Source: Planctomycetota bacterium
GTDB taxonomy: Bacteria; Planctomycetota; B129-G9
Assembly: GCA_030607235.1 (NCBI GenBank)
Contig: JAUWEX010000017.1
Span: 1 to 11,460, forward strand
Direction of reading: 5' to 3'
DNA length: 11,460 nt
Below, piece after piece: positions 1,137 through 11,141 of this stretch. Each line of letters starts with the position of its first letter. Position 1 is the first letter of the stretch. The position numbers and the translations under genes were made by a program. A model generated the notes under the pieces. The model did no database searches. It saw only the letters and a program-made list of their open reading frames with translations, and was not told where the DNA came from.

Positions 1137-2435
1137 ATGGCGCCGATTGATACGATTATAACAAAACTAAAACAACATATCGGAAAAGAAGTCCGAATCA
1201 AGGGCTGGCTATACAACAAACGCTCGAAGGGCAAAATTCACTTCCTCGAGATTCGCGACGGCACCGGCATCGTCCAGGGTGTCATGTCCACCGGCGACGT
1301 CGACGAGGAGACCTTCACCCTCGCGGATAAAATCACACGGGAATCCTCCATTATCGTTACCGGCACCGTTCACCAGGACGACCGCGCCCCCGGCGGCGTC
1401 GAACTGCACCTGACGGGGCTGGAACTCGTGGCGATGTCCGAGGAATACCCCCTGGGCAAAAAAGAACACGGCCCCGACTTCCTGCTCAACAATCGGCACC
1501 TCTGGCTGCGCTCCAAACGCCAGCACGCCGTCATTCGTGTGCGGCACGCGGTCATCAAGGCGATTCGCGACTTCTTCGACGATCGCGATTACACGCTCGT
1601 CGATACGCCTATTTTTACGCCCGCCGCATGTGAGGGCACCAGCACTCTGTTCGAGGTGTCGTATTTCGGCGAAAAGGCCTATCTGACACAGAGCGGCCAA
1701 CTTTACGGCGAGGCCGCCGCGATGGCGCACGGCAAAATCTATTGCTTCGGCCCGACGTTCCGCGCCGAGAAAAGCAAAACACGCCGCCACCTCACCGAGT
1801 TCTGGATGGTCGAGCCTGAAATCGCATACGCGACGCTCGACGACGTCATGGATGTAGCCGAAGAATTCGTCGAATACATCGCCGGCTTCGTAGTCAAGAC
1901 CCGCCGCGCCGAACTGGAGACGCTCGGCCGCGACATCTCGAAACTCGAGGCGGTCAAGCGCCCGTTCCCGCGCATGACCTACCAAGAGGCATGCGAGAAG
2001 ATCAAGTCGCTCGGCGTCGAGATGAAGGACGGCGACGATTTTGGCGCGCCGCAGGAAACCGCGCTGGGCGATTCCAGCGACAAGCCCATCATGATCCACC
2101 ACTGGCCCTCGGCGATCAAGGCGTTTTACATGAAGCGCGACGCGGACAATCCTTCTCTGGCGCTGGGTGTCGATATGATCGCGCCCGAAGGTTACGGCGA
2201 AATCATCGGCGGCGCGCAGCGCGAAGAAGACCTCAACCTCATGCTCCAGCGCATCAAAGAACACGACCTGCCGATGGAGGCCTTTCAGTGGTACCTCGAC
2301 CTGCGGCGCTTCGGCACCGTTCCGCACGGCGGCTTCGGGCTTGGCGTGGAGCGCACGGTTGCGTGGCTTTGCGGTATCGAGCACCTGCGCGAAACCATCC
2401 CGTTCCCGCGCATGTTGCACCGGATTTATCCCTGA
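1137..2435 (+). CDS. asnS: Asparaginyl-tRNA synthetase
   Basis: Class IIb aminoacyl-tRNA synthetase charging tRNA-Asn with asparagine in the cytoplasm. The protein has 432 residues. An N-terminal OB-fold anticodon-binding domain spans about residues 16-100 (begins [14 protein letters not shown], then FLEIRDGTG). The catalytic core has SGQLYGE at 186-192, motif 2 from Phe208 to Glu228 ([20 protein letters not shown]) and motif 3 [15 protein letters not shown] at 399-413. The FWMVEPE and SGQL signatures separate it from the related aspartyl enzymes. The length is that of a complete short bacterial AsnRS. ATG 1137 was chosen because the conserved OB-fold begins right after it and a GGGAG lies 11 bases upstream; the 24 in-frame codons before it, back to a TTG at 1065, look like leader. 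The aminomutase gene follows after 50 bases, so co-transcription is plausible. Confidence 0.96.
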
Positions 2436-2473
2436 AATATTATAGATAGTGCTAATCGCCATTGACAATGCGT

Positions 2474-2478
2474 GGAGA
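2474..2478 (+). promoter_or_regulatory. Shine-Dalgarno site deciding the aminomutase start
   Basis: GGAGA lies 7 bases before the ATG at 2486. Alternative in-frame starts at 2462 (TTG) and 2468 (ATG) have no comparable purine-rich sequence in the right place, and GTG 2480 lies too close. ATG 2486 is therefore the preferred start. Confidence 0.6.
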
Positions 2479-2485
2479 CGTGAAA

Positions 2486-4306
2486 ATGATTACACATTTC
2501 GAAATCGAACGCAAAAAGCGCTTATCCGATCAATATACCGCAGAAGTGTTCCTGGACCACATTTCGGAAGTTGCGCGTCCGCTGGCCGACTGCACCGATG
2601 TCAGGCAGGCCCGAGACGTTCTGTGGGATTGGCTTGACCTGGTCCAGCGCAAGGCCTATGGCGCCGAAGAAGAATTGCATCCACTGGAATTGGTTGTGGT
2701 GCGCGACTGTATCCGCACTTTTCGTATGATGTTTTCCGCGCGCAAAGAAAATCGCGCGAAATTCAGCATCGTTCGAGCGATATGGGACGTGGCCTGCGGC
2801 CGCAGTCGTCCCGATCTCACCGCCGCCTTCTGGGCCGATATCATTCATCTGGTGCGTGGCGGCCTCGGCTGGAGCGACATCTATTCCGATTATCGCAAAA
2901 GCGAAGTTGATTACCTGGAAGGCCGACAGGCCGCCCGCGCGCGTTCGAGAGAACTTGACGACATGTGGGAAAACGCCCGCCGGATCGCCCGCCGCTACCC
3001 TCATGGCATGTTGTCCGGAATAATTGCCCGGAGGAACGGGAATCGCGACAGAATAATGAAGGTGCTTGGCGCTTCGCCTGCCGACTGGATGGATTGGCGC
3101 TGGCAGATTCGCAACGTTGTGCGCGACGTTCGCCGTCTCGAAGACCTCGTAGTTCTGAGCGGCGAGGAAAAAGAGTGTATTCGCAAAACGCGCGAGGCCG
3201 GTTTGCCTTTCGGCGTAACGCCGCACTATATCAGCCTCATGGATAATTCGCTCAACCGTTACAACGATCACGCGGTGCGCGCGCAGGTCTTGCCCAACCG
3301 GAAATACGTCGAGATAATGGCGAAAAGGCACGGCCAGCGAGATGGGGCCTTCGATTTTATGCTCGAACGCGACACCTCGCCCGAAGACCTGATAACCCGC
3401 CGCTATCCTACGATAGTCATATTCAAACCGTATAACACCTGTCCGCAGATTTGCGTTTATTGCCAGCGCAACTGGGAAATCGACGACGTGCTCGATCCGC
3501 ACGCGCTGGCAAGCAGCGAGCAGATTGCCAGAGCCATTTCGTGGCTGCGCCAACATCGCTCTATTACCGAAGTCCTTGTTACCGGCGGCGATCCCCTGGT
3601 GCTCAGCGCCACCAAACTCCACAATCTTTTGGGCGAAATATCCGACATAGATCACATTCAGCGAATTCGCATCGGCACCAGGATGCCCGTAACCATGCCC
3701 ATGCGCATTACGGATCGCCTGGCCGATATGCTTGCCGGTTTCCGCATCCCCGGTCGCCGCGAAATCGTGGTGGTAACTCACGTCGAACACGCATACGAAC
3801 TCAACCCCGATCTCGTGGACGCCGTGGAGAAATTGCGCCGGCGCGGGATAGGCGTATACAACCAGATGGTATTTACGTTTGAAAACTCCCGCCGCTTTGA
3901 AGCGGCGCAGTTGCGGCGGCTGCTGCGGCTATGCGGGGTCGACCCGTACTACACCTTTAACGCAAAGGGCAAGGAGGAAACGGAGCGATTTCGCGTCCCG
4001 ATGGCGAGATTGTTGCAGGAGCAAAAGGAAGAGGCGCGATTGTTATCGGGCCTGGATCGTACCGACGAGGCCGTTTACAACGTGCCGCGCCTGGGCAAAA
4101 ACTACCTGCGCGCCGCACAGCACCGCGACATAATCTCAATCCTCCCCGACGGGCGGCGCGTCTATGAGTTTCACCCGTGGGAAAAGAAGATGATGCTTCA
4201 GGAGACTTTTATCATCCCCGATGTGGCGATCCTGCCTTACCTCGAGAAACTGGCGCAGTGCGGCGAAGACCCCGACGACTACAAAAGTATCTGGTACTAT
4301 TTCTGA
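2486..4306 (+). CDS. KamA-family radical SAM aminomutase, probable glutamate 2,3-aminomutase
   Basis: PLP- and SAM-dependent enzyme moving an alpha-amino group to the beta carbon; cytoplasmic, 606 residues. Residues 1 to about 195 are a helical extension not found in clostridial lysine 2,3-aminomutase (KAM). The KAM-like part starts at Trp201 (WMDWRWQIRN). The cluster motif is Cys319-x3-Cys323-x2-Cys326. Arg328 matches KAM Arg134, which holds the substrate alpha-carboxylate. GGDP (367-370) is the SAM-binding motif. Lys538 in VPRLGK matches the PLP lysine (KAM Lys337). The KAM aspartates that grip the lysine side-chain ammonium are replaced: Asp293 by Lys494, and Asp330 by Tyr531 or, with a one-residue shift, Asn532. 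As I recall, clostridial glutamate 2,3-aminomutase has Lys and Asn there. The zinc cysteines of KAM (268, 375, 377, 380) are also missing. The likely product is beta-glutamate, a compatible solute in some microbes. Substrate is inference; family is secure. Confidence 0.9.
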   Translation: MITHFEIERKKRLSDQYTAEVFLDHISEVARPLADCTDVRQARDVLWDWLDLVQRKAYGAEEELHPLELVVVRDCIRTFRMMFSARKENRAKFSIVRAIWDVACGRSRPDLTAAFWADIIHLVRGGLGWSDIYSDYRKSEVDYLEGRQAARARSRELDDMWENARRIARRYPHGMLSGIIARRNGNRDRIMKVLGASPADWMDWRWQIRNVVRDVRRLEDLVVLSGEEKECIRKTREAGLPFGVTPHYISLMDNSLNRYNDHAVRAQVLPNRKYVEIMAKRHGQRDGAFDFMLERDTSPEDLITRRYPTIVIFKPYNTCPQICVYCQRNWEIDDVLDPHALASSEQIARAISWLRQHRSITEVLVTGGDPLVLSATKLHNLLGEISDIDHIQRIRIGTRMPVTMPMRITDRLADMLAGFRIPGRREIVVVTHVEHAYELNPDLVDAVEKLRRRGIGVYNQMVFTFENSRRFEAAQLRRLLRLCGVDPYYTFNAKGKEETERFRVPMARLLQEQKEEARLLSGLDRTDEAVYNVPRLGKNYLRAAQHRDIISILPDGRRVYEFHPWEKKMMLQETFIIPDVAILPYLEKLAQCGEDPDDYKSIWYYF

Positions 4307-4320
4307 TTCACCACGAATTT

Positions 4321-4797
4321 CTATCGAAGCAATGACGGAAACAGGATGGGCAAGAGGTGGTAGGCGATCAGTACGCCGTACATGACAACTATCACGATAG
4401 TGGCGATGCGCGCCAGCGTGAAGTTCTTGTGGACGAGCAGAATAAACAGACCTGTCGCCGTAACGGCGTACTTGATGACAATCCACCACGTGTTGCCCTC
4501 AATCTCCATCAGCATTGCGATTATCGGATTGACCTCGGTTGCGTCGTTGTTTTCCAGGTGATAAATCGTGAACGCCGCGTCCGCGCCGCAAAGTACCAGG
4601 ATCATGATTACCGCCAGCCACGCCTTTTTGCCGAACCGGTCTACGTAATAACATTCTTTGGGGTCGCTTGACCTGCGGTTCCAGCGCCTGCGGCCCATAA
4701 GCAGGTACTTGCTGAACATCGGCGTTGGATTTTTGCGCCGGTCTTCATTGCCGCGGTTTTCCATATCCGCGCCGTGGTTTTTTGGTTGATCACTCAT
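4321..4797 (-). CDS. DUF5658-type small membrane protein
   Basis: A 158-residue protein. Residues 1-57 are polar and strongly basic (GRRRWNRRSS, then YYVDRFGKK just before the membrane), so probably cytoplasmic. Three hydrophobic helices follow at about 59-79, 104-122 and 130-153. The first runs into GADAAFTIYHLE and the loop TEVNP, the Asp-Ala / Glu-x-Asn-Pro pattern I associate with DUF5658, whose function is unknown. The ATG at 4797 overlaps the end of the upstream glycosyltransferase by 8 bases (ATGAGTGA), with a GGGAGAG about 14 bases before it, so it is probably translationally coupled. A longer frame from 4842 is open but lies inside the upstream gene. It is the last gene of the minus-strand glycan operon; a role in membrane-linked glycan export or anchoring is a guess from position only. 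Confidence 0.8.
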   Translation of the reverse strand: MSDQPKNHGADMENRGNEDRRKNPTPMFSKYLLMGRRRWNRRSSDPKECYYVDRFGKKAWLAVIMILVLCGADAAFTIYHLENNDATEVNPIIAMLMEIEGNTWWIVIKYAVTATGLFILLVHKNFTLARIATIVIVVMYGVLIAYHLLPILFPSLLR

Positions 4798-5707
4798 CGA
4801 AATCGTAGTCCGCTCTCCCGAATTTTCCGTCGTTGAAATCACTCCAGGCTTTTCGGATCCAGTGTTTGAGGCGTTTCCGTTTGTCCGTAGGGGCCCTGAG
4901 CAGTTGCAATCTTGTCAGCAAACGAACCCACAATAATCTTATCGGCAAAAAATATCCGTCGCTGTGCTTCGAAATTAACAGCAAGTGGTTGCGCGCGGCG
5001 TAGTAAAAACGTTTTGCGCTGAAGCCTCCGCCGAACGACGACGCACCCTTGTGCATCACACGTGCGGAGGGACAGTACATTACTTGCCAGCCCGCCCTCG
5101 CGGCCCGCAGACAGTAGTCGATTTCCTCGAAATAGCAGAAATACTCCTCTGCCAATGGTCCGATATCGTTGAACATCTTTATCCTGATCAACATCGCCGC
5201 GCCGTGCACCGCGCGCCGCTCCAGCGGCTCGGCGGGCGCTTCCGAATCGGGCCTGCCGAAACCGATCTGGCGAATTCTGCCGGTAAAGAGATTGATCGCG
5301 ACGCCTTCGGACTCGATCATCCCCGGAGAGCCGGCCATCAAAACCTTCGCGCCGACGATGCCGGCCGTTTCATTTTCCTCCGCGCATGACACCAGGTCGG
5401 CGATCGTATCCGCTTCGACTTCGGCGTCGTTGTTGAGCAGAAAAACGTAATCCGCCTTTTTTTCCGCAGCGTCCCGCAGGGCCGTGTTCGCGCCGCCCGA
5501 AAAACCGCGGTTTTCCGGCAGGAGCAGCATTCGCGCCTCCGGGAAGCGCGAAGCGATTTCCCCGCCGGATCCGTCGGTCGAGCCGTTGTCGACCACCACC
5601 GTTTCGGTGTTGTTGCAGGCGTGCCGCTCCAGCGAACGCAGACACGCAATCGTGTCCGGTGCGTTGTTCCAGTTCAGCACGGCTATGTGTACGCGCGGCG
5701 CGCTCAT
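4790..5707 (-). CDS. GT2-family glycosyltransferase (rhamnosyltransferase-like)
   Basis: Inverting GT-A fold enzyme expected to add a sugar from a nucleotide-sugar donor to a growing surface glycan at the inner face of the membrane. It has 305 residues. Seen: the N-terminal strand HIAVLNWNN at 7-15, VVVDNGSTDGS at 37-47 (donor nucleotide binding), NRGFSGGAN at 66-74, the DXD-type NNDAEV at 92-97 (Asp94), and the acceptor/base region EEIDYCLRA at 194-202, followed by VMHKGASS. This layout is that of the WbbL-like rhamnosyltransferase group of GT2, but donor and acceptor cannot be told from sequence. No membrane helix is evident. It starts 10 bases after the radical SAM stop, with GAGAG 7 bases before the ATG, and its last codons overlap the DUF5658 gene. 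Confidence 0.92.
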   Translation of the reverse strand: MSAPRVHIAVLNWNNAPDTIACLRSLERHACNNTETVVVDNGSTDGSGGEIASRFPEARMLLLPENRGFSGGANTALRDAAEKKADYVFLLNNDAEVEADTIADLVSCAEENETAGIVGAKVLMAGSPGMIESEGVAINLFTGRIRQIGFGRPDSEAPAEPLERRAVHGAAMLIRIKMFNDIGPLAEEYFCYFEEIDYCLRAARAGWQVMYCPSARVMHKGASSFGGGFSAKRFYYAARNHLLLISKHSDGYFLPIRLLWVRLLTRLQLLRAPTDKRKRLKHWIRKAWSDFNDGKFGRADYDFDE

Positions 5708-5717
5708 TTCGTATCTC

Positions 5718-7517
5718 TCATGAATACAAACCGAGCAGGGGGCAGTCGCGGCAGCCCTTCATCAGTTTGCCGGTATAGAACGACTTGCGCAGTTGCCGGT
5801 ATTTTTTGCCGTTCCAGATTTCTTCAAATGGCTCGTTTTTTACGTTGCCCATCTTCAGATCCTGCGGCGCGCGGCAGCACGGGAACACCGAGCCGTCAGG
5901 CTCGATCTTGGCGTAAATCGCCACGAAGTAGCAAAATCGCCGATGGCGCTTGATAACGATTTCCGGCAGGTAGTTCATTTTGAACCGCCGGAAGGCTTTC
6001 TTGTTGAAATTGTACGCATTGGGCTTGCCCAGGCCCACGTGCAGGTTGATTTCGCGGCGACGCGCCGTCTCGACCGCACGCTCGATCTCGCGTTGCAATT
6101 CCTCATCCGAGACCCTGCCCTTCAAATCCCACTCCTTCAGCGCCGGGAAGTTTATCAGCAGTTCTTGCAGCGCAATCGTGTCCACGCCGAGATCGGCCAT
6201 GAAATCCACATATTCGGCCATCTTGTTCCAGTTCATGTTCATAATGACCGAACTGGTCATCACCTCGACATCATCGCGCGCGGCGAGTTTGCAGGCCTGC
6301 CTGATATTTTCCACGACCCTTTCGAATTTCGCGCCCGTCCGGATCAATTCGTAGGTCTCTTTCTCGTGCGAGTCGAACGAAATCTGCAGGCGCCCGATAA
6401 TGTCGGCCATCATCTCGTAGCGTTCGGGGGTGAGCAGCGAACCGTTGGTGATCATGTTAATCTGCACCTCGTATTTCCGCGCCAGTTCGGTTATCAGCCC
6501 GAAATCGCCCAGCAGAGGCTCGCTTCCGGCTGACGGTGTCAGCAGGCTTGCCTTCGGAAAGACCTGCCCGCAGATGTCGCGTGCTTCGTCTTCGGTCATC
6601 ATCGAATCTTCGGGCCTGCTTTCGGGGCTGCACATCAGGCAGCGCAAATTGCAGCGGTTGTTCGTGGCCAATTCGATATGCATCGGCCGTCCTTCCCACT
6701 CCAGCCGCTGCTCGTTGAGGTCCTGCAGGATCAGCGTGGAATTTTCGCGTTCGATACCTTGCTTGGCGACCTTTTGGCGGCCTAGCAATTCCTCGTAAGC
6801 GTGCGCCAGGAACTTCGCCCGTTTTTGTACGGCTTCCGCGTCGTTAGGCCCGTCGCCCTCAAGCGCGATGAAAGATTCGTCCAGATACAGCCGCCCGTCT
6901 TCGATGCCGAATTCCTTTACACACTGCATGATCGTTGCGTTCGGGCAGAAAAAGAAATCCACGCCCGCCATCAGGCGCACGTTCTCGCGCCTGTCTCCGG
7001 CGAATTTCCTTACGTTCTCGGCGTCATCGAGGCGGAAATCAAATTCCTCGGCGTTTGCGCGCTGGCAAATTCTCAAAAACTCATCCCGCTTGTCCTTGTC
7101 GGACGGCAGGCACTTTTTGAAAAGTTTCGCGCCGTGCGTCCCTTTTTCGACTTCCTCGAGGCGATAGGCGAAGCACTCCGCGCGGCCGTAAGCGTTTTCG
7201 TTCGAGCAGAAAAAACGGTTGCAGCCATACAGCGCACCCCTCATACACATCGCAGAAAGATCCGGCACATCCACAACGACCAGCGCACCGGCCTGCTGCG
7301 CCGCGGCGATTTCCGCTTCGTCGATCGTTTCAGGAGCGGAAAAATGCACTACCTGCGGCTTGTGCAGCGCGATCTCCCGCCGCAGTTTCTCCGGCTGGGC
7401 GCCGCCGTTCAGAACCAGTGTCGCGGGAATCTCGTCCAGCGTCTCGTTCAGGGCCTTCACCAGCGATTCCATATAGAACGGAGTGATTTCTTTGGATACT
7501 ATCAACAGCCTCGTCAT
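5718..7517 (-). CDS. Radical SAM/SPASM protein fused to a GT4-like N-terminal half domain
   Basis: A 599-residue two-part protein. Residues ~1-220 look like the N-terminal Rossmann half of a GT-B glycosyltransferase: KPQVVH (53-58), PDLSAMCMRG (85-94), DFFFCPN (187-193) and FGIEDG (203-208) line up with the adjacent GT4 (7550-8911) at a fixed offset of 42 residues. The Gly-rich loop that starts a normal GT4 is missing, and so is the donor-binding half. After a helical linker comes a radical SAM core with Cys289-x3-Cys293-x2-Cys296 (4Fe-4S, SAM cleavage). A SPASM-like C-terminus follows with Cys529, Cys547-Cys548 in DGSVFPCCRA, GNVKNEPFEEIWNG (558-570) and Cys589/Cys592 for an extra cluster. 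The ATG at 7517 has GGAGAG 5 bases upstream; the longer open frame to 7832 overlaps the previous gene and is basic, unlike a protein start. The genomic context suggests it modifies a glycan, lipid-linked sugar or linked peptide; the substrate is unknown. Confidence 0.9.
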   Translation of the reverse strand: MTRLLIVSKEITPFYMESLVKALNETLDEIPATLVLNGGAQPEKLRREIALHKPQVVHFSAPETIDEAEIAAAQQAGALVVVDVPDLSAMCMRGALYGCNRFFCSNENAYGRAECFAYRLEEVEKGTHGAKLFKKCLPSDKDKRDEFLRICQRANAEEFDFRLDDAENVRKFAGDRRENVRLMAGVDFFFCPNATIMQCVKEFGIEDGRLYLDESFIALEGDGPNDAEAVQKRAKFLAHAYEELLGRQKVAKQGIERENSTLILQDLNEQRLEWEGRPMHIELATNNRCNLRCLMCSPESRPEDSMMTEDEARDICGQVFPKASLLTPSAGSEPLLGDFGLITELARKYEVQINMITNGSLLTPERYEMMADIIGRLQISFDSHEKETYELIRTGAKFERVVENIRQACKLAARDDVEVMTSSVIMNMNWNKMAEYVDFMADLGVDTIALQELLINFPALKEWDLKGRVSDEELQREIERAVETARRREINLHVGLGKPNAYNFNKKAFRRFKMNYLPEIVIKRHRRFCYFVAIYAKIEPDGSVFPCCRAPQDLKMGNVKNEPFEEIWNGKKYRQLRKSFYTGKLMKGCRDCPLLGLYS

Positions 7518-7522
7518 GTTCG

Positions 7523-7528
7523 CTCTCC
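7523..7528 (-). promoter_or_regulatory. Shine-Dalgarno site deciding the radical SAM start
   Basis: On the minus strand GGAGAG lies 5 bases before the ATG at 7517, inside the 32-base gap after the GT4 stop. This fixes the start here, rather than at the far-upstream end of the open frame at 7832. Confidence 0.65.
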
Positions 7529-7549
7529 AAAAGTTGGCGGCGCGGTATA

Positions 7550-8911
7550 TCAGCGGTTTTCGATCAGGCGCGTGTAAAGTACGACCATATCCGCCGCATC
7601 GTCTTCGATAGTTTTTACGCGTGGAATTCCGGCACGCAGTTTTTCGATAAGCGTCGGATCGTCGGTGCTTTTTTTCATGGCGTCCCGCAGTGATTGCGCG
7701 TCGTTCTGCTCGAACAGAAGTCCGCTGACCCCGTGTTCTACCAGTTCGGCCATACCGCCGGAATTTGACGTGATAACCGGAGCGCTCGCCATGAACGCCT
7801 CGTGAATTACCAGTGGCGAATTTTCGTACCATATCGACGGTACGACCAGCATGTCGATTTCGGCGAAGACCCCGGCGATTTCGTGTGCGAGATAACTGCC
7901 GCGCATGTTGACGCCGGGCCTGTTGGCCGCTTTTTTGATAATTTGAGGGTAATCGTCGAATTCGTAGAACTGCGTGAACCCGCCGAAGACGTTGAGTTCC
8001 GCCTTTCCCGGGTCGATTCCGTCGAATGCCTCCAGCAGTACGTGCAGGCCTTTGGTGGGAATGATCGAGCCGACGAAACCAAAGCGGATTTTGTCGCCGG
8101 GCTTGCGCTCAAAGCCTTCGAAGGGCGCGGTGTCGAAGCCATAGTCCGAGTAAATGATTTTTTCCGGCTCAACACCAAATTTAGTGTATTGCTCGCGCAA
8201 AAAATTCGACGGCGCGATCAGCAGGTCGATCTTGCCGAGAGTTTCGAGCATGTGGCGCCGACGCCGCTCGATCGGCCCGATTGCGTCCTTATCGCCTTTG
8301 CCGCCGCTCGATATCCGCAGATAGATGCGACGCAAAAACCCGCGCATGAAGTTGTTGCCCAGATGCAGGGTGCCGGTAATTCTTTTGTATAGCCCGAACG
8401 CCTTTTGCGAAAAGCCGCTGGTCCGTAGTTGCAGCAACTGGCATTGCGCGCATCTTGCCTCGCTCGAATCGCCGCATACTTGCAGCTCGCTGTCGATCAA
8501 CTGTCCGCGCGGGCAAATTGCCCAGTAATCGTGCAGCGTCATGACTGTCGGAATTTGCCGTTTTTTCAACTCGTCGGCGATTAGCGTCGACAAGTGCGTC
8601 AAGTGGCCGATGTGGACGACGTCGGGCCTGACCTCGTCGAGGAATCGCCCAAACGCCTCGGCGACAGCCGGATTTGTGTAAGTCTTCTCGTAAGAATCGC
8701 AGTAACCAAGCGAGTTGTTTATCGACCACACATCCAGCCCCTCGCGATTCTCGCGTTTTACTTTGTATTTCGGCGCCCTTGCGTCTTCGATCCTGTGGAA
8801 TATGCTGACCTCGTGGGTGCGGGCCTGTGCGAGAGCGAGTTTGTAGGTGTAGGTCTCGGCTCCGGCGTTGTTGTGCGGCGGGAACCCGTGTATTACGTGC
8901 GCGATTTTCAT
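7550..8911 (-). CDS. GT4-family glycosyltransferase (GT-B fold)
   Basis: Retaining glycosyltransferase, 453 residues, probably acting at the cytoplasmic membrane face on a lipid-linked glycan. The N-terminal half begins MKIAHVIHGFPP with the Gly-rich GAETYTY loop (17-23), RPDVVH at 95-100 and the catalytic-type His127-Asp128 (LHDYWAIC). A Cys set follows: Cys133-Pro-Arg-Gly, Cys146, Cys154 and Cys157, common in this GT4 branch and possibly structural or metal-binding. The C-terminal half opens with IRFGFVGS and TKGLHVLLEA (Lys287) and holds the EX7E donor motif intact: Glu363 and Glu371 in ENSPLVIHEAF. It therefore looks like an active enzyme; donor and acceptor are unknown. The ATG overlaps the upstream GT4 stop by 4 bases (ATGA), with GGGGAG 8 bases before it. 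It is a tandem relative of the upstream GT4 and of the N-terminus of the downstream radical SAM protein. Confidence 0.95.
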   Translation of the reverse strand: MKIAHVIHGFPPHNNAGAETYTYKLALAQARTHEVSIFHRIEDARAPKYKVKRENREGLDVWSINNSLGYCDSYEKTYTNPAVAEAFGRFLDEVRPDVVHIGHLTHLSTLIADELKKRQIPTVMTLHDYWAICPRGQLIDSELQVCGDSSEARCAQCQLLQLRTSGFSQKAFGLYKRITGTLHLGNNFMRGFLRRIYLRISSGGKGDKDAIGPIERRRRHMLETLGKIDLLIAPSNFLREQYTKFGVEPEKIIYSDYGFDTAPFEGFERKPGDKIRFGFVGSIIPTKGLHVLLEAFDGIDPGKAELNVFGGFTQFYEFDDYPQIIKKAANRPGVNMRGSYLAHEIAGVFAEIDMLVVPSIWYENSPLVIHEAFMASAPVITSNSGGMAELVEHGVSGLLFEQNDAQSLRDAMKKSTDDPTLIEKLRAGIPRVKTIEDDAADMVVLYTRLIENR

Positions 8912-10200
8912 CTGGAGATCTCCCCGTAGATTTCCATGAGTCTTTGCGCGTGTTGCTCGGTATTCATGGGCGCGGTGATCTTGTCCGCCATGTTTTCAAT
9001 CAAACCCGCTTCGTCGATAAATCTGCGCATCGCGGCGGCGAGCACCTCCGCATCGTCCGGCGCGACCGCCAAACCGGTTTCGCCGTCGCTGACGAATTCG
9101 GTCAGGCCGCCGTAATCGCTTACGATCATCGGCGTGCGGGTTTGTTTGGCGTAGAGGACGACCAGCGGCGAATTCTCGTACCACAGCGAAGGAACGACGA
9201 GTATGTCGAACTGCGCGAACGCGTCGGCGATCTTTTCGGGCGGAAAGGTTCCTTGCCAGTGGATGTTTTTTTCGGGGTGTTTTTCTTTCAGATCGGAGAC
9301 GTATTCCACGGAGCCGTGCAGGTTTGTGCCGCCGAACACGACGATGTCGCACTTGTCCTGCGGCAGTTTTTGCGCGGCCTCCAGCAACACGTGCAATCCT
9401 TTGTGTGGCAGAAGTTGGCCGATAAAGCCGAAGCGGATTTTTTCGCTGTGCTGCCGGTGAAAATTGCCGAAAAGTTTTGCGTCGATTCCGAATCCCAGCG
9501 CCTCGGTGCGGTTGATCTCCGGCATCCACCGCCTGTATTGCGCGGCCAGCGCGGCGGTGGGCGCAATGACGCAGTCCGCCGAAGCAAGGGCGCGGGTGAT
9601 TTTGCGCCTGCGGGCGGAGATCATGACGGCGATTATTTTCCGCGCAATAGCCGCGACAGGCGCGAGTCTCATCCGGATGGTTTCGAGGATGCCGTTGCGT
9701 ATGCGCTTAACCATCCAGAGGCACCGGGCGCATTTGTGCGATGATTCCGGGCCGGTGCAAAGTTCGTTTTTGTAGTCCAGCAATTGTCCGCGCAGACACA
9801 GCGGCAGGAAATCCGTCAGTGTTATGACGACCTTCGCGCCGGATTTCTTCGCGTCGGTTACCTGCTCTATCGAGAGGCCGCCGAGGACGTAGGTGAAGTG
9901 CGCCACGTCGGGCTTGAAGGCTGCGAGGCAGTCGCGAAAGGCCCGCGCGACCTGCGGCGTGTGCCATGTTTGACGGAATTTTTTCGCCTGCGTGCTGACG
10001 TCGTAATTGATTCCCAAGCACTTCATCCCGTCCTGTTCTTTTTCTTCGCGGCTGAACGGTGCCTGCTGCGGATCTTTGAAAATGTAGAACACACCCATGT
10101 CGTTGCTTTTGGCGACCGCTCGGGCGGTCTGGTATGTGTAGGATTCGGTGCCGGTGAAGGCCCGCGGCGGAAATCCGTGTACTACATACAATATCCTCAT
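8908..10200 (-). CDS. GT4-family glycosyltransferase with altered catalytic positions
   Basis: A GT-B fold protein of 430 residues, clearly a paralogue of the downstream GT4: MRILYVVHGFPP, GTESYTYQ (17-24), KPDVAHF (96-102), CLRGQL with Cys135, Cys148, Cys157 and Cys160, then IRFGFIGQ and HKGLHVLLEA in the donor half (Lys267). Two usual GT4 signatures are changed. The His-Asp pair is Thr129-Asp130 (LTDFLPLC), and the EX7E motif keeps Glu342 but has Tyr350 instead of the second Glu (ENSPLVVLYAK). In GT4 enzymes the His supports catalysis and the second Glu contacts the donor ribose. It may use a different donor, be slow, or act as an inactive partner of the intact paralogue. ATG 10200 is preferred over GTG 10203: it matches the paralogue's start, has GAGGGGGG just upstream and shares one base with the previous stop (TGATG). 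Confidence 0.93.
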   Translation of the reverse strand: MRILYVVHGFPPRAFTGTESYTYQTARAVAKSNDMGVFYIFKDPQQAPFSREEKEQDGMKCLGINYDVSTQAKKFRQTWHTPQVARAFRDCLAAFKPDVAHFTYVLGGLSIEQVTDAKKSGAKVVITLTDFLPLCLRGQLLDYKNELCTGPESSHKCARCLWMVKRIRNGILETIRMRLAPVAAIARKIIAVMISARRRKITRALASADCVIAPTAALAAQYRRWMPEINRTEALGFGIDAKLFGNFHRQHSEKIRFGFIGQLLPHKGLHVLLEAAQKLPQDKCDIVVFGGTNLHGSVEYVSDLKEKHPEKNIHWQGTFPPEKIADAFAQFDILVVPSLWYENSPLVVLYAKQTRTPMIVSDYGGLTEFVSDGETGLAVAPDDAEVLAAAMRRFIDEAGLIENMADKITAPMNTEQHAQRLMEIYGEISR

Positions 10201-11141
10201 CACACCCCCCTCTGTTTTTTCAGCGGCCTGTCTTTTCGCTCATGGCGGTAGGCGCGGAATTGGGCGTAGGTCTCGAGGAACCCTAGCGCGAACGCGCGAT
10301 AAAGGTTTCGCGTCTTTTCGCCTGTACCGAGGTCGGAATTCCAGACCATGCTTACGTTGTCTTTGATGTAGTAGAAAGAGTGGTGCAGGAGTTCTCTTAA
10401 CGAATGAACCGCAGCGTAGCCGAAGATCCGGTAGAGCCGCCGGGCCGAGATGTAAGTCCGGTGATATTCGTAGCGCACCGGTCGGCGATGCGAGTGCACA
10501 ACCGCGGCGGCGGGCTCGTAGACGATTTTGTGCCCGTCGAGCAAGACATCCCGCGCCCACTCCACGTCTTCGGCGAAATTCGCAACGGGAAAATGGTGTT
10601 CTTGCCAGACCGACTTCCTGACGCACGAGCAGACGTTGTCGAAGGCGCAGAGCATGTACTTTTCCAGCGCAGGCAGTTTTTCATATTCGGCCCTGTCGGC
10701 GATTTCGCTGACCTGCTGCGTCTCGCGGGAGGCGGCCCATTCGGCGAGCCGTTTTTTTGTCATGAGGTCGACGTTCTCCCGCGGGATTTGTCGTCCGTAC
10801 ACGCCGGCAATCCGTTCGTCGGCGAACGGCGCGGTTAGCGCGTCGAGCCAGCCTTCGCCCTGCGGCAGAGCGTCCTGGACGGTGAGCACGATCAGATCGC
10901 CGTCGGCCTTTTCGATGGCGAAGTTGCGCGTGCCGCCGTGGTTGAACGATTTGCGATCGATGCGATATGTCCGCACGCCGAACTCCGCGAGCGTTTCGAG
11001 CGTGCCGTCGGTGGAGCCCGAGTCGACGGCCAGTATCTCGAAGGCCGCGCCGGTTTTTTGCGCGCGGATCGCTTCGAGGCACGCGCGCAGTTTCGCGCCG
11101 CCGTTAAAGGTCGGAATGATTATGGATATCGCTGGCTTCAA
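10200..11141 (-). CDS. GT2-family glycosyltransferase
   Basis: Inverting GT-A fold sugar transferase, 313 residues, presumed to work on a surface glycan. Seen: AISIIIPTFNGG at 4-15, AVDSGSTDGT at 38-47, FNHGGTRNFAI at 66-76, the DXD-equivalent TVQDALP at 87-93 (Asp90), AEDVEWARDVL at 190-200 and VVHSHRRP at 214-221. The QDALP and NHGGTRN pattern is that of the rhamnosyltransferase-like GT2 group, distinct from the GT2 at 4790-5707, so the two probably add different linkages. The start is a TTG at 11141, immediately before the first beta strand, with a weak GAAGAAG upstream; no ATG or GTG in frame gives a complete domain. The previous gene ends 18 bases before. The C-terminus ends in a basic tail (ERKDRPLKKQRGV). 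Confidence 0.92.
   Translation of the reverse strand: MKPAISIIIPTFNGGAKLRACLEAIRAQKTGAAFEILAVDSGSTDGTLETLAEFGVRTYRIDRKSFNHGGTRNFAIEKADGDLIVLTVQDALPQGEGWLDALTAPFADERIAGVYGRQIPRENVDLMTKKRLAEWAASRETQQVSEIADRAEYEKLPALEKYMLCAFDNVCSCVRKSVWQEHHFPVANFAEDVEWARDVLLDGHKIVYEPAAAVVHSHRRPVRYEYHRTYISARRLYRIFGYAAVHSLRELLHHSFYYIKDNVSMVWNSDLGTGEKTRNLYRAFALGFLETYAQFRAYRHERKDRPLKKQRGV
10205..10212 (-). promoter_or_regulatory. Strong Shine-Dalgarno sequence overlapping the end of the GT2 gene
   Basis: On the minus strand GAGGGGGG lies 4 bases before the ATG at 10200, within the last codons of the upstream GT2 gene. With the TGATG stop/start joint it implies translational coupling of the two glycosyltransferases. 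Confidence 0.55.

Follow-up and report, generated by a model that had tools for sequence, protein, structure and literature searches.

The described systems closest to the protein studied here are fusions of a glycosyltransferase (GT) with a radical S-adenosylmethionine (SAM) enzyme. In UC3/WD0613, from the Undecim Cluster of Wolbachia phage WO, a glycosyltransferase at the N-terminus is fused to a radical SAM domain at the C-terminus, and in several Wolbachia supergroups most of the sequenced genomes contain this cluster (PMC9203015). A Brachyspira plasmid with adjacent radical SAM and GT genes constitutes a loose precedent, by description only (PMC4267127). In this work, a window of 11,460 nucleotides (positions 1 to 11,460 of contig JAUWEX010000017.1, assembly GCA_030607235.1, from a Planctomycetota bacterium) was analysed, which encodes on its minus strand P0001, a protein in which the N-terminal half of a family GT4 glycosyltransferase precedes a radical SAM core and a twitch tail. 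We give about an even chance to the reading that P0001 is a radical SAM/twitch enzyme with a GT-B module cut to the acceptor-side lobe and the crossover helix, the donor lobe having been lost from inside a GT4-radical SAM fusion that was once complete. The parts of P0001 are the following:

5718..7517, minus strand: P0001, half-GT4/radical SAM/twitch protein; open frame of 599 amino acids plus stop, ATG at 7517
6858..7517, minus strand: predicted GT-B-like Rossmann domain, residues 1-220 (predicted structure)
6858..7394, minus strand: GT4 N-half homology, residues 42-220 (hhalign, own-genome profile)
7173..7247, minus strand: cysteine segment, residues 91-115 (C91, C99, C104, C115); three of the four GT4 cysteines retained, C99 new
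6777..6836, minus strand: residues 228-247, resembling the crossover helix at the C-terminus of GT4s, with the donor lobe missing immediately before them (helix matrix; model helix 227-245)
6201..6662, minus strand: radical SAM core, residues 286-439 (PF04055, E 9.1e-17)
6630..6653, minus strand: CxxxCxxC motif, C289/C293/C296, invariant in 18 of 18 proteins
5739..5933, minus strand: SPASM/twitch tail, residues 529-593 (PF13186, E 6.1e-16); C529, C547, C548, C589 and C592 invariant in 18

Like P0001, UC3/WD0613 carries GT4 sequence (glycosyltransferase group 1) at the N-terminus and a radical SAM domain at the C-terminus of one chain, beside sugar-metabolism genes; unlike P0001, its GT is complete and has the donor lobe. 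The record used for this comparison was identified as UC3/WD0613 by how it is annotated and by the genes around it rather than by a locus tag, and this annotated copy was 52% identical over its full length to P0026, a probable planctomycete protein judging by its nearest relative, L099 (77% identity). Further relatives of UC3/WD0613 were L099 itself (1195-3561, in genome G023 of the window's phylum) and L148 (7001-9337). The GT4-radical SAM fusion is thus an already known kind, and the half-GT form is new within the literature searched: searches of open-licence PubMed Central turned up neither a description of a radical SAM protein with half a GT nor a mention of TIGR04157. The view of a first-pass annotation, made from the sequence alone, that no named family has this architecture therefore holds, within these searches, for the half-GT form, but not for the fusion as such, which is in print with a complete GT (PMC9203015).

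The N-terminal domain of P0001 is, by profile comparison and predicted fold, the N-terminal half of a GT4. When compared by hhalign with 20 GT4s, residues 42-220 aligned with residues 84-262 of P0002, the complete GT4 encoded immediately upstream, with a probability of 98.8% and an E-value of 1e-16. The residue pairs listed in the first-pass annotation were all recovered at an offset of 42, where the ungapped residues 53-220 gave 26 identities, against a mean of 9.8 (standard deviation 3.1) and a next best value of 18 among 260 offsets. Single BLASTP comparisons of P0001 gave E 0.005 with P0002 and E 4e-6 with P0003, the second GT4 of the window, and a profile of the 18-protein family run against the window's own genome found P0002 (E 9.9e-13) and P0003 (E 2.9e-7). 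The donor half is absent, as annotated earlier: the hhalign match ended at residue 262 of P0002, a Pfam scan of P0001 alone gave no GT match, and the donor lobe with its EX7E motif, characteristic of GT4 donor lobes, was not found in P0001.

The predicted structure was also consistent with a GT-B-like N-terminal fold, as the first-pass annotation had expected. GT-B ranked first for this domain on realignment only and not in the raw Foldseek list, where the single match at E <=0.001 was the glucose-binding protein 2h3h. In 25 realigned structure rows, the match began at model residue 1 or 2 and ended between residues 242 and 251, and in the solved chain it reached the end or close to it. A cobalamin-binding Rossmann domain was also considered, since 1y80 and 8jbt appeared in the Foldseek list (E 6e-3 to 8e-3, 92-95 columns), and was rejected because sequence profiles and realignment favour GT-B.

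In GT-B enzymes, the last helix folds back to the N-terminal domain, as residues 342-358 do in WaaB (PMC10556518). A matrix built from the C-terminal helix of 20 GT4s scored best on P0001 at residues 228-247, the first of 580 positions, with a score of 5.2 against -1.2 for the next. None of 5000 column-permuted matrices scored as high there, 48 of the 5000 had their best place there, and the only two of 412 other GT4 windows that preferred 228-247 overlapped the helix. The in-register helix was the best place in only 6 of the 18 family members (P0001, P0004, P0005, P0015, P0016 and P0019); it ranked sixth in P0006, and in P0020 and the ten P0007-like proteins the best place lay elsewhere. In a joint test of the six, which were selected after the family-wide scan, 1 of 5000 permutations placed all of them best at this position. 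P0001 thus appears to have retained both the N-lobe and the crossover helix and to have lost approximately 170 residues of donor lobe from between them. GT4s such as P0002 have this N-lobe and helix in common with P0001, which differs from them in lacking the donor lobe and EX7E and in the loss of the N-lobe signature residues.

A complete form of the fusion was found in G003, the only genome examined from another family of the class. Its protein P0031 has an intact GT4 (Pfam; EX7E at 364) followed by a domain of the same radical SAM family as P0001, 38-39% identical. The profile phrog_21308 matched P0031 over 217-614, across GT and radical SAM. The two proteins also share a nearly equal spacing from the helix to WExRP, a motif preceding the radical SAM core (45 residues in P0031, 44 in P0001), and both are encoded in runs of GT genes, whereas the donor lobe and EX7E are present in P0031 and absent from P0001. 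Because of the helix-like stretch and the complete fusion in the class, loss of the donor lobe, by an internal deletion that would have removed it from such a fusion, explains more than the capture of half a GT. The first-pass annotation had proposed such a capture; a GT4 N-half on a radical SAM/twitch enzyme, within a GT gene run, was indeed found, but the helix stretch and P0031 favour lobe loss.

Capture would mean that a GT4 N-half was added to a radical SAM gene that had stood alone, in an event separate from the G003 fusion, the likeness of the helix being convergent. We consider this unlikely, since it leaves two observations unexplained: the helix match of P0001, whose score none of the 5000 permutations reached, and the nearly equal spacing in P0031. 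Nevertheless, it is compatible with the phylogenetic trees. In the radical SAM tree, the 18 half-GT proteins grouped together (100/97); P0031 as sister of this clade gained +0.41 in log-likelihood, with p 0.524 in the approximately unbiased (AU) test, and the alternative with L002 had p 0.235. P0026 and L099, which stood for the UC3/WD0613 family in this tree (P0152 itself was absent), grouped together (100/100) outside the 98/99 clade that contains P0001. The GT4-radical SAM fusions therefore apparently comprise two radical SAM subfamilies, and the two domains were probably joined more than once, which speaks for capture, though uniting P0026 and L099 with the half-GT clade was not rejected (AU p 0.107). 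Furthermore, the GT4 of P0031 was sister to the GT4 encoded beside it (100/100), so that the G003 fusion could itself be a local event.

The N-half tree comprised 84 of 173 rows (172 plus P0026, which was added) and 12 of the 18 half-GT proteins. None of the candidate kin of the half-GT clade was rejected (P0031 with P0032, p 0.245; the P0002 group, p 0.266; P0026/L099, p 0.412), and the best tree joined P0003 to the clade at 57/55, with a long-branch warning. Hence, the trees do not choose between loss of the donor lobe and capture of the N-half, and the N-half tree names no source. The claim that the half came from a local GT found no backing here, as the tests favoured no one source group.

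To what extent the lobe still works as part of a GT was judged from its residues, comparing 13 of the 18 half-GT proteins (P0008, P0010, P0017, P0018 and P0019 excluded) with 159 GT4s, a biased pool picked because its members resemble P0031 and the GT4s of the window. Five positions were near-invariant among the 159 (H8 in 156, G17 in 158, E19 in 158, H103 in 155 and G258 in 151), and all five were lost in 13 of 13 half-GT proteins. The N-lobe signature G17 plus E19 was found in 158/159 GT4s and in 0/13 half-GT proteins, in which there is an alignment gap. These losses make transferase activity of the lobe unlikely, and they leave the acceptor recognition that had been attributed to it putative. 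The first-pass annotation had further noted Pro85 in place of the catalytic His of GT4s. This is true of P0001 but is no family trait, as His was present in 5 of the 13 aligned half-GT proteins and in 111 of the 159 intact GT4s; the Asp that follows was retained in 12/13. Similarly, His58 does pair with a GT4 His at offset 42, but it is not conserved in the family.

Such a lobe could be a relic with a structural role and no part in substrate handling, the radical SAM enzyme acting like its stand-alone relatives. Besides the lost signature residues, three further observations agree with this. P0020 lacks the entire cysteine segment; identity to P0004 is 48% in the N-terminal domain against 70% in the radical SAM part, indicating faster divergence of the former; and the window's own genome has a stand-alone radical SAM paralogue, L141 (G000:C339 781-1809), 42% identical. 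However, the lobe has invariants of its own. In the A2 alignment of 16 distinct proteins (P0017 and P0020 excluded), C99, R101, C104, C115, C151, C191 and N193 were invariant, and those unlike the GT4 invariants include C99, R101, C151, C191 and N193, so that the lobe is seemingly under its own constraint. Four cysteines were present in 159/159 pool GT4s; three of them were retained in 12/13 half-GT proteins, C99 being new, and six lobe cysteines were near-invariant (91, 99, 104, 115, 151 and 191). We regard the relic as less likely than not. The gene beside L141 reads like that of an AarF/UbiB-type kinase.

The radical SAM core with C289, C293 and C296 and the SPASM-like tail, both described in the first-pass annotation, exceeded their Pfam cut-offs (PF04055, 62.2 bits against 29.5; PF13186, 58.9 against 21.5), with their cysteines invariant in 18 of 18 proteins. 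A full SPASM domain, with two auxiliary clusters, has a seven-cysteine pattern; this was not found, as there are just five invariant cysteines in the tail. BtrN, a twitch radical SAM dehydrogenase that acts on an aminocyclitol, was the best PDB sequence match to P0001 (residues 529-596, E 6.2e-9), the likeness being in the tail only. The tail showed the four-cysteine twitch pattern of BtrN (C529, C547, C589 and C592, plus C548), which predicts binding of one auxiliary cluster; the twitch form is defined in PMC9012708. Unlike P0001, BtrN has no GT lobe; dehydrogenases of its type carry out the two-electron oxidation of a cyclitol or sugar alcohol. The best NCBIfam match was NF033640 (twitch domain-containing radical SAM protein), at 104.9 bits, below its cut-off of 170.

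The likely role of P0001 is to oxidise or epimerise a glycan intermediate by radical chemistry. The reduced lobe would still dock or position glycans or glycolipids that the neighbouring GTs produce. Working in the manner of BtrN, the radical SAM centre would abstract a hydrogen from a carbon of the sugar and pass the electron to the single auxiliary cluster, so that the sugar would end up oxidised or epimerised. In a bolder version, the radical SAM barrel would have taken over the place of the donor lobe, the acceptor lobe and crossover helix would present the growing glycan, the scaffold would rewrite a sugar in place where it once added one, and the six lobe cysteines would hold a putative further metal centre; this we hold to be improbable.

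The genes around P0001 form a co-directional run, in the order GT2, P0003, P0002, P0001, GT2 and DUF5658 protein (window positions 11141 to 4321):

10200..11141, minus strand: GT2 glycosyltransferase at the far upstream end (PF00535, E 6.2e-21)
8908..10203, minus strand: P0003, complete GT4 (Pfam)
7550..8911, minus strand: P0002, complete GT4, upstream neighbour of P0001 (Pfam; EX7E at 363)
7523..7528, minus strand: Shine-Dalgarno-like GGAGAG ahead of the P0001 ATG (read from sequence; putative function)
4790..5707, minus strand: GT2 glycosyltransferase, downstream neighbour of P0001 (PF00535, E 3.7e-15)
4321..4842, minus strand: DUF5658 protein, final gene of the run; it and the end of the preceding GT2 gene overlap (Pfam)

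In L009, a counterpart of the downstream GT2 occupies the equivalent position (E 3.7e-55). For 17 of the 18 stand-alone radical SAM relatives examined, nothing related to the four GTs of the window was encoded nearby; in the remaining case, in G006 (L142 4832-8728), the genes of an unfused radical SAM relative, a methyltransferase and a GT4 like P0002 form a single co-directional run. The setting suggests that the radical step is tied to building the sugar chain of the gene run. The substrate could instead be a peptide or protein, glycosylated by the neighbouring GTs as in pathways to glycosylated ribosomally synthesised and post-translationally modified peptides (RiPPs). SkfB and SuiB were among the closest folds, and many SPASM enzymes act on peptides. 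Mycofactocin is such a glycosylated RiPP (PMC7491314). However, P0001 has no Pfam leader-binding domain, and the run (4321-11141) contains only two gaps, of 32 and 10 bases, its remaining genes overlapping, so that no precursor gene fits between them. A peptide target is accordingly judged quite unlikely.

P0001 has at least 17 homologous proteins (E 2.9e-249 to 2.9e-135, 45-61% identical), 11 of which cover 100% of it; approximately 8000 candidates were scored in each of two capped homologue searches, and the close relatives with a named source came from Planctomycetota assemblies. Since the window's genome is a draft (418 contigs, 76% complete), an assembly or annotation error joining two genes was considered, and may be practically dismissed: the join is common to these homologues on other contigs, and P0013 lies in the separately assembled L009. 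Among the best 80 of 165 loci, 79 were kept, of which one matched residues 1-599 and the other 78 started at residue 232 or later. Four genomes of the class were compared: two had the half form, one the complete fusion, and one (73% complete) neither at E 1e-40; G002 and L009, each of 4255 bases, look like one and the same contig and were counted once. When P0031 was searched against 392 genomes of the phylum (E 1e-60, two candidates scored per genome), P0031 was the sole full-length match among the matches listed; this survey overlooked the G023 fusion and is therefore not a census.

If the loss of the donor lobe is correct, P0001 would document the rare case in which a bilobed enzyme sheds one lobe after joining a chemically unrelated enzyme, while a relative from its class (G003) still has the complete form. 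If its radical centre acts on the glycan of the run, it would point to late-stage radical tailoring in bacterial polysaccharide assembly and offer a way into the GT-radical SAM fusion UC3/WD0613, which is so far unexplained.

Additionally, a KamA-family radical SAM protein is encoded just past the GT run on the opposite strand (window 2462-4306, plus strand); it scored 310 bits with TIGR00238 (cut-off 199), the glutamate 2,3-aminomutase model being second and under its cut-off. P0002 also belongs to a GT4 subfamily with four invariant cysteines past the HD motif, which in P0002 are C133, C146, C154 and C157 (residues 133-157, window 8441-8515). Their presence in 159/159 members of the biased pool makes a metal site at this segment possible.
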